From assembly GCA_021648145.1 (NCBI GenBank), contig JAKITI010000014.1, positions 1 through 64,000 of the forward strand: a DNA stretch of 64,000 nucleotides, written 5' to 3'. Both the position numbers and the translations under genes were made by a program. Under the pieces are notes generated by a model. That model saw nothing but the letters and a program-made list of their open reading frames with translations, was not told where the DNA came from and ran no database searches. Origin of the DNA: Gammaproteobacteria bacterium (lineage in GTDB: Bacteria; Pseudomonadota; Gammaproteobacteria; JAADGQ01). Of this stretch, positions 1-4,638 are shown in pieces (positions within the stretch are counted from its first letter, which is position 1; every line of letters begins with the position of its first letter).

Positions 1-186
1 TTTGGAGATGCAACACCTGCAGAAATATACGGAGTAAAACAAGGTTTAACAGAGAGCAACGTAAACAAAGAGGAGGAAGAAATAAGAGATTACTTGGTGG
101 TGGAAAGCTCTGTGGGCAACACCCCCAAGAACACATCCACCGAGCATTCGTTGATCCATAATAAAATTATTTCAATAGTAAAATAA
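1..186 (+). CDS. Transposase, C-terminal fragment (partial at left edge)
   Basis: The frame is open from the first base to a TAA at 184-186 and encodes about 61 residues. It starts FGDATPAEIYG, which resembles the 'TPAEIY' segment at the end of the DDE integrase core in IS3/IS481-like transposases, and continues with an acidic, low-complexity tail. Everything upstream is outside the window, so the catalytic residues cannot be checked. The frame stops about 50 bases before the retron reading frame is interrupted, as expected for the last gene of an IS inserted there. Assignment to a specific IS family is not possible from this fragment. Confidence 0.55.
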   Translation, partial: FGDATPAEIYGVKQGLTESNVNKEEEEIRDYLVVESSVGNTPKNTSTEHSLIHNKIISIVK

Positions 187-239
187 GGGTTATATCTTAT
201 TTTTTTGAGTCTCTGTCTTGACTATGGGGGCCACTTTAA
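1..239 (+). mobile_element. Right end of an insertion sequence interrupting the retron RT
   Basis: The reverse transcriptase similarity on the minus strand stops abruptly at about 239. The following minus-strand bases (AAAGTGGCCCCCATAGTC at about 236 downward) look like an IS terminal inverted repeat, and a transposase C-terminus lies just inside. The matching left end and any target-site duplication are outside the window, so the boundary is approximate. Confidence 0.5.
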
Positions 240-444
240 ACCGCCTTTGTAGGTGCTTCAATTGATCAATTGGAGCTTTTATTTTTCGAATTTTTCCGCT
301 CTTCTTGGGGATTTCGAATTCAATATATTTTTTGTCTTCTGGGGTCTTATAAATGATGAAGGAGACAGATTTTGGTTTGTAGCCAAGAATAATTGCAAGA
401 TCACTAAGGCTGGTTGCTTTTTTTAATTTCTCTAGTTGTGACAA
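190..444 (-). pseudogene. Retron-type reverse transcriptase, N-terminal remnant
   Basis: The 84-residue frame starts at a TTG (an in-frame stop lies directly upstream). Residues 1-69 have the N-terminal signature of retron reverse transcriptases: a leading LKKATSLSDLA helix, LGYKPKSVSFIIYK, then EFEIPKKSGKIRKIKAP and LKHLQRR. A complete retron RT has roughly 300 residues with a YxDD catalytic box. Here the similarity ends after LQRR and 15 unrelated residues, read from the IS end, follow. The catalytic core is absent, so the gene is inactive unless it resumes beyond the insertion to the left of the window. The frame starts 23 nt after the putative msr/msd RNA, the usual retron arrangement. 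It is the first gene after attC 664-778 and so occupies a cassette position in the integron. Confidence 0.75.
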
Positions 445-467
445 TTAAAACCATTCCCTGAATAGAT

Positions 468-617
468 GTGTGACCCATGGATACTCTTATGCGATAGTAA
501 CACTGTAACCTAGTCATACTAAGTATACTGCGTAAAGGATTGTCAGGGAGCAAACACATCCTGACATTAGTTTCTTATATTGCGATACACAATAATAAAT
601 CTATCCATGAGTCACAC
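468..617 (-). ncRNA. Putative retron msr/msd non-coding RNA
   Basis: Two 16-nt arms, 468-483 (GTGTGACCCATGGATA) and 602-617 (TATCCATGAGTCACAC), are inverted repeats matching at 15 of 16 positions, as expected of the a1/a2 pair that closes retron RNAs. Between them is a 7-bp hairpin (TGTCAGG 541-547 with CCTGACA 560-566), typical of msr stem-loops. The 484-540 segment would be msd; its stem is imperfect by eye. Read on the minus strand, the order is a1, msr, msd, a2, then the RT start 23 nt later. The branching G and the msDNA length are not determined. The element lies entirely within the cassette downstream of attC 664-778. Confidence 0.65.
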
Positions 618-2970: not shown

Positions 2971-3196
2971 AGGGCAGGATGAACCAACATCCAACAGTAA
3001 ACACTGGTTCACAATGAAAGTCAAGAGCATTAGATCAGTTAAATCAATGGCGAATAAATGATAATTGACTCGGTGCTAAGTTTCAGGAATGGGTGCATGA
3101 CGAACATTGCCTTAGACACATAACTTTTAACTATACAGAAACCGCCCTATTCGAACCACACATAATCCCTCTACCTCAACACACATAGATTCTGTG

Positions 3197-3252: not shown

Positions 3253-4638
3253 ATGCAACGTATAGAGCAAACCACAACCACACTCAAAGATCCCATTGAA
3301 AAATTTTGGGATAAATACATTCAACTTCTTGTTAAAAAAAGAGTTAAAGACCACACCATCCGCTTCCATGTCATTTGGGCTGAGCGATATATCAAAGCAT
3401 TTCCAGATAAAAAACTGGCCAATCATGCTCCCAGTGACATCACATCATACTTTTCAGAACTAGACAGAAAAGGAGCCTTGAATAATGGCCAGGTAAACCA
3501 AACTGTCACGGCACTAAAAGCACTTTTCTATCTTGTAAACCCGATATGCTTTAAAGAAACTGACTGGGACGCTCTCAAAAAACCAGTCACCCACCACGCT
3601 TACCTTAAAGAGGTAAAACAACATCACGACACTCCGCGCGCGCCTAAATCAACCACCACACTGGATCAGGTACGAGAAGACCACCACAAACTCATCACCG
3701 CATTAAAATCTGAAATTCGCCGACGCAACTATTCGATCCGAACTGAACAAGCTTACGAACTGTGGACTGTAAAGTTTATTAGTTTCTCTGGTAATCGTCC
3801 GCCTAAAAATCTTGAAGCCACTGACATCACTCGCTATTTAGAATATTTGGCAGTCAAAAGAAACGTCGCAGCCAGCACTCAAAATCAAGCGCTTAACGCT
3901 TTAAGCTTTTTTTATAAAAATATACTCGATAAGCCCTTGGGCGAATTGGATAATTTTTCTCGTGCAAAAAAGCCTAAAAGATTACCCACCGTACTAACGA
4001 AATCTGAGGTTTCCCAACTGCTCAAAAACCTTACCGGCATTCACAGTCTGATGGCATCACTACTCTATGGCACAGGAATGCGACTTATGGAGTGTGTTCG
4101 TCTGCGTGTTCAAGATGTTGATTTTGAATATCAGCAAATTATCATTCGCAATGGAAAAGGCCTCAAAGACCGAGTGGTGCCGCTGCCAACCAGTTTAATG
4201 GAGTCATTAAAAGAGAGGCTTGTCACGACAAAAACCCGTCACCAAGAAGATTTAGAAAATAATTTGGGTGAAGCATACCTGCCTAATGCGCTCTCGCTAA
4301 AATACCCAAATGCGGCTAAAGAGTGGAAGTGGCAATACGTTTTCCCAAGCGGTCAACTCTCTGTTGACCCTCGTTCAAATAAAGTACGCCGCCACCATAT
4401 CCATGAAAATGGTCTGCAAAAATCAATCAAAAAGGCATCCGATAAGGCCGAATTAATAAAACGAGTCAATTGCCATGCCTTGCGCCATAGTTTTGCGACA
4501 CATTTACTGGAATCAGGTTATGACATACGCACCGTACAAGAACTGCTTGGCCATGCCGATGTTTCAACCACGATGATATACACTCACGTATTAAACAAAG
4601 GTGGGCGCGGAGTTGTTAGCCCTTTGGATGGCTTATAA
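3253..4638 (+). CDS. intI: Integron integrase IntI with extra N-terminal domain
   Basis: This tyrosine recombinase recombines attI and attC sites. Catalytic residues are visible at R277 (GTGMRLME), H408/R411 (HALRHSFATH), H434 (LLGHADVSTT) and Y443 (MIYTHV). The IntI-specific insertion follows the family pattern (AYLPNALSLKYPNAAKEW at 341-358, WQYVFPS to about 366), as does the C-terminal GGRGVVSPLD. Typical IntI proteins have 320-340 residues. This one has 461 because residues 1-130 form an additional SAM-like core-binding segment before the usual one at about 145-240. It diverges from the cassette array and ends 1 bp from the convergent znuA. The frame looks intact, so the integron may be active. 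Confidence 0.92.
   Translation: MQRIEQTTTTLKDPIEKFWDKYIQLLVKKRVKDHTIRFHVIWAERYIKAFPDKKLANHAPSDITSYFSELDRKGALNNGQVNQTVTALKALFYLVNPICFKETDWDALKKPVTHHAYLKEVKQHHDTPRAPKSTTTLDQVREDHHKLITALKSEIRRRNYSIRTEQAYELWTVKFISFSGNRPPKNLEATDITRYLEYLAVKRNVAASTQNQALNALSFFYKNILDKPLGELDNFSRAKKPKRLPTVLTKSEVSQLLKNLTGIHSLMASLLYGTGMRLMECVRLRVQDVDFEYQQIIIRNGKGLKDRVVPLPTSLMESLKERLVTTKTRHQEDLENNLGEAYLPNALSLKYPNAAKEWKWQYVFPSGQLSVDPRSNKVRRHHIHENGLQKSIKKASDKAELIKRVNCHALRHSFATHLLESGYDIRTVQELLGHADVSTTMIYTHVLNKGGRGVVSPLDGL

Follow-up and report, generated by a model that had tools for sequence, protein, structure and literature searches.

The window, by which we mean the whole 64,000-nt stretch of DNA that was analyzed, stops at position 1 inside an insertion sequence (IS), whose end cuts a reverse transcriptase (RT) gene. 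Next to this gene lie the RNA region of a retron, the attC sites of the second and first cassettes of an integron, a gene for an AIPR-family protein and the integron integrase (Table 1). The initial annotation had read the left end of this region as a retron, with the N-terminus of its RT, in an integron cassette position.

Table 1. Features of the truncated retron and of the adjoining integron, in window coordinates.
Feature	Coordinates	Strand	Basis
IS right end, cutting the retron RT gene; terminal sequence, read inward, TAAAGTGGCCCCCATAGTCAAGACA at 238–214	1–238		Identity with contig C25
Ec67/Eco2-family RT-Toprim gene, 5′ part (68–69 codons), TTG start at 444	239–444	−	PDLC02966, NF038237
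a2 arm	468–483	−	Pairs with a1; covaries in 22 sequences
Predicted msd template, 81 nt (length inferred)	485–565	−	Alignment with Ec67 and relatives; Eco2 anatomy (PMC12405507)
msr with short RNA stem-loop TATTGTGTATCGCAATA; 3′ end is the conserved AAUG running into G565	566–600	−	Fold, alignments; helix 2 covaries
Predicted branching guanosine in AGA motif, equivalent of Eco2 rG15	601	−	Invariant in all aligned sequences; role of rG15 from PMC12405507
a1 arm	602–617	−	Fold, R1 match, covariation
Leader, 52 nt, from attC crossover to a1; possible extended −10 TGTTATAGT	618–669	−	Read from the sequence; tentative
attC of the preceding (second) cassette, CTAAC...GTTA, imperfect palindrome	667–775	−	Inverted repeat 685–711/729–755; attC-like fold
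attC of the first cassette	1482–1568	−	26-bp perfect inverted repeat; detector match
First cassette: AIPR-family protein, 395 aa	1725–2912	−	PF10592, E = 1e-17, 65 bits (cut-off 25)
Integron integrase, 461 aa, with N-terminal extension	3253–4638	+	TIGR02249, 472 bits (cut-off 265); PF13495 and PF00589

Among PADLOC profiles, the RT fragment matched best to RT-Toprim_I-C (PDLC02966, E = 5.8e-24), with weaker matches to other retron types, and its best NCBIfam match was retron_Ec67_fus (NF038237, E = 2.4e-20); there was no group II intron or DGR family among the NCBIfam matches listed, and Pfam gave no match to the fragment. The open reading frame was listed at 190–444, whereas RT homology stops at 239; since positions 190–238 are the end of the IS, this frame is a chimera of 68–69 RT codons and a short IS tail. 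The fragment shares 43% identity with Ec67, between 49 and 54% with five further relatives and 33% with a copy from a Proteus plasmid. In the alignment with Ec67, residues F43, K63 and R67 from the window correspond to F46, K66 and R70 of Eco2; these three Eco2 residues contact msDNA, F46 by stacking on the template base that comes next, K66 and R70 through the backbone of the msr RNA (PMC12405507).

A genome scan with the fragment retrieved 12 loci, mostly alphaproteobacterial, that are 49–58% identical and alignable from residue 1. Intact relatives do exist among these loci, with several full-length genes of about 570–590 aa, and many of the genes have TTG or GTG starts. The alphaproteobacterial RT-Toprim retrons (L009–L020, among them Henriciella, Ancylobacter and Rhizobium) share the ncRNA architecture of the window element but, unlike it, several are intact and none is surrounded by a convincing attC array.

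Positions 617–468 of the minus strand are a genuine retron msr-msd RNA, and the RT start codon lies 23 nt beyond the end of a2, exactly the gap that had been proposed from the sequence alone. Likewise, the 16-nt arms a1 and a2 are, as described, inverted repeats at 15 of 16 positions, with 15 Watson-Crick pairs plus one G-U pair. Folding of 440–665 yielded −62.2 kcal/mol, versus −45.2 ± 4.3 for shuffled sequences (z = −3.9; 0 of 200 shuffles were as good), and confirmed the short hairpin between a1 and a2. A covariance model, R1, built from the upstream regions of 13 relatives and leaving out the window sequence, gave a single significant match in the 64-kb window, at 623–452 on the minus strand (65.1 bits, E = 4.8e-15), with the runner-up at E = 0.65. 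From outside its building set, R1 also recovers the real Ec67 ncRNA (E = 1.2e-8), two copies from Proteus/Providencia plasmids and two gammaproteobacterial loci.

In an alignment of 22 sequences (A4), there were changes on both sides in 8 of the 11 a1/a2 pairs and 99.6% of the cells were paired, counts that are biased toward the model because A4 had been fitted to its structure; when the partner was slid by 1–3 columns, as a control, pairing was only 27–40%. The short stem-loop of the msr (helix 2) likewise covaries in A4. The same a1/a2 arms are visible in MAFFT alignments of the relatives, and in intact homologs they are kept, with compensatory changes. When the first 5 kb of the window were compared with Rfam, no retron family matched, and the attC hairpins gave only chance matches to microRNAs. 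The RT family, the homology and covariation of the ncRNA and the anatomy of its motifs all bear out a retron with an RT N-terminus, and neither of the two outcomes that the initial annotation had set as refuting it (a better match to group II intron or DGR RTs, or arms that intact homologs lack) came about; we consider it next to certain that the element is of the Ec67 type.

The anatomy of this RNA follows that of Eco2, in which the branching guanosine, rG15, is the G of the motif CAGATTT (PMC12405507). By homology, the counterpart of this motif in the window is TAGATTT, with G601 in the branch position, and the msr stem-loop of Eco2 corresponds to TATTGTGTATCGCAATA. The last copied base, which in Eco2 is G52 of AAUGG, is predicted to be G565 of AAUGU, and the first one, the A of GAG just 5′ of a2, is predicted to be A485. 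The resulting msDNA would be ~81 nt long, versus 67 in Eco2, although the exact limits of the msd are uncertain and may be wrong, because the predicted msd, as DNA, folds no better than shuffled sequences (z = −0.6), unlike the long hairpin of Eco2. The window element thus resembles Ec67/Eco2 from Escherichia coli (RT-Toprim, type I-C) in the order of ncRNA and RT, the a1/a2 arms, the AGATTT branch motif, the single short msr stem-loop, the AAUG that ends the msDNA template and the three conserved RT residues. Besides the RT identity and the predicted msDNA length given above, it differs from them in being surrounded by an integron instead of a prophage and in being truncated by an IS. A promoter scan with a strict consensus found none on the retron strand, and the extended −10 in the leader (618–669) is therefore tentative.

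Positions 113–238 of the window are identical, letter for letter, to positions 1–126 of contig C25, which is a different locus, and position 238 is the end of the repeated element, because the two contigs diverge exactly there. The 25-nt terminal sequence was found exactly at only two places in the genome, in the window and in C25. This end may resemble those of the IS3/IS2 group, and a plasmid search with the protein from the IS end, aimed at identifying the IS, gave no match. On C25 (L006:1–1400), the second copy of the IS end lies inside an IS1-like transposase gene, beside an IS1595-type transposase. A search for plasmid replication proteins (PF01051) found nothing.

Reading in frame from the TTG at 444 to 239, the RT gene meets the IS end at 238, and the contig stops inside the IS. 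The insertion looks recent, since no stop codon interrupts the RT fragment and the ncRNA remains intact. The catalytic part of the RT (motifs YADD, NAxxH and VTG) and the Toprim domain are absent from the assembly contigs searched; however, the smallest of these contigs has 10,039 bases and the body of the IS is missing too, so that short pieces were probably dropped from the assembly and this absence is uninformative. As assembled, the retron of this strain is almost certainly dead, and neither msDNA nor defense is expected from it because the ncRNA has been cut off from the effector and from the RT catalytic core.

On its other side, the retron adjoins the array of a chromosomal integron, next to the integrase. 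The crossover G of the attC at 667–775 is at position 670, the next cassette begins with base 669, and a1 starts 52 nt beyond, in agreement with the distance of about 50 bp from an attC noted in the initial annotation. The retron is the third element from the integrase and has the same orientation as the other cassettes. The attC sites were searched with a detector built in-house, for which the background was 3 matches (two sites) in 59 kb. The right-hand end of the attC at 667–775, CCAATGAGCATGGCGTTA, is identical to attC ends from an array in contig C10, and is also found in single sites elsewhere. The window and the sister genome G002 agree in the integrase and its flank up to window position 3115 and then diverge into other DNA, which fits with the front of a variable array being expected there; G002 has the same integrase and no retron match at E ≤ 1e-15, on a contig that reaches about 650 bp into the array.

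The fragment is short, 69 aa, and its resemblance to an RT, together with the inverted arms, might be fortuitous; nevertheless, a chance resemblance is refuted by two matches that are adjacent and in the correct order, the protein with E-values between 1e-20 and 1e-24 and the RNA with 5e-15, and we assign it a negligible probability. A piece of RT could also derive from a DGR or, as attC sites are targets of group IIC introns, from a group II intron. In fact, the attC array of C10, from this same genome, ends in what looks like the start of a group II intron within an attC, so that group II introns are probably present in this genome. The fragment, however, matches only retron families among those listed, and the adjacent RNA is, by the covariance model, a retron msr-msd; the PADLOC and NCBIfam matches and the match to R1 therefore rule out a group II intron or DGR RT, an origin that we consider highly improbable.

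The place of the retron, third from the integrase, in the orientation of the array and starting 52 nt after an attC crossover (670/669), makes a cassette position likely, and we favor cassette status as the probable one. The claim of a cassette position stands for the side facing the array, whereas the other side lies beyond the IS. The same facts weigh against the alternative that an Ec67-type retron, not being a cassette, arrived beside the last attC through an IS, a phage or recombination, with the attC there by coincidence. This alternative would agree with several observations: no attC is visible downstream, where the window ends in the IS; Ec67 itself lies among phage genes (portal, terminase); the intact gammaproteobacterial relatives in genomes G170 and G368 are chromosomal and have no attC near the retron; and in a sample of 369 genomes of the class, no other RT-Toprim gene whose position was listed lay 100 kb or less from an integron integrase. 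Additionally, a scan of about 30 relatives for flanking attC sites revealed scattered hairpins, none with convincing sites on both sides. Given how close to the crossover the retron starts, we deem a coincidental arrival rather unlikely. As to the cassette reading, the mobilization of the retron as a cassette is still something that we infer, as had the initial annotation, because its own attC, expected behind Toprim, would lie past the IS and the end of the contig, and because none of the relatives is convincingly flanked by attC sites.

Very probably, then, what remains at the locus is the 5′ half of a type I-C retron of the Ec67/Eco2 kind. It probably joined the array as a cassette of the integron, and an IS later cut its RT gene after codon 68–69. 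There is, in our estimate, an even chance that a whole Ec67-type retron, including the ncRNA, the RT-Toprim gene and its own promoter, moved as a single integron cassette with its 5′ boundary 52 nt before a1. If true, integrons would store entire RNA-templated defense systems besides small, protein-only ones.

In Eco2, msDNA is made from the ncRNA by the RT-Toprim protein, which stays inactive as part of a trimer that depends on the msDNA; once a phage infects the cell, the Toprim domain works as an RNase and phage production stops (PMC12405507). By analogy with Eco2, in the intact form of the window retron the RT would recognize the RNA closed by a1 and a2, priming would occur from the 2′-OH of G601, and copying of the template, starting at A485 and ending near G565, would yield about 81 nt of msDNA. 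The fused Toprim RNase would then be kept inactive in the RT-msDNA complex until phage activity disturbs the complex.

The retron itself is a broken example of the known Ec67 type, and only its setting is unusual; as the present copy is broken, its value is as a pointer toward intact versions. Both retrons and integron anti-phage cassettes are already established, and, according to the summary in PMC12409362, anti-phage genes are known in cassettes of sedentary chromosomal as well as mobile integrons (Darracq et al., 2025; Kieffer et al., 2025). The window is similar to those cases in carrying a defense gene in an array next to the integrase; cassettes of this kind are summarized there as small and streamlined, and a retron of ~2 kb that includes its own ncRNA would count among the larger ones. 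A search of the open literature, with the surveys of Darracq et al. and Kieffer et al. outside its reach, found no retron described as a cassette of an integron, and the novelty of this setting is unproven. If confirmed, it would mean that an integron can bank and shuffle an RNA-dependent, reverse-transcribing defense system, and one would have to ask how a cassette that brings its own ncRNA comes to be expressed at a distance from the array promoter.

Other features of the integron and of its genome were also observed. The N-terminal extension of the integrase carries an extra SAM-like core-binding domain; many integrases in the class sample have a similar length and may form a clade in which the N-terminal domain is duplicated. 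The AIPR family is linked to abortive phage resistance, and the protein of the first cassette is a weak relative of MzaE, from the MZA anti-phage system, possibly representing a second defense cassette in the array. The second cassette, about 776–1481 (~700 bp), has no clear gene and no open reading frame of more than 63 aa on the cassette strand, and is either non-coding or decayed. The attC array of C10 (L120:10561–14456) has no integrase, is beside a pilin-like gene and contains cassette-type genes for a DUF6602 protein, an M23 peptidase and a DUF4160/DUF2442 pair. Finally, single attC ends (CAATGAGCATGGCGTT) are scattered, away from the integrase, on contigs C6, C8, C9 and C1, some of them beside toxin-antitoxin-like genes.
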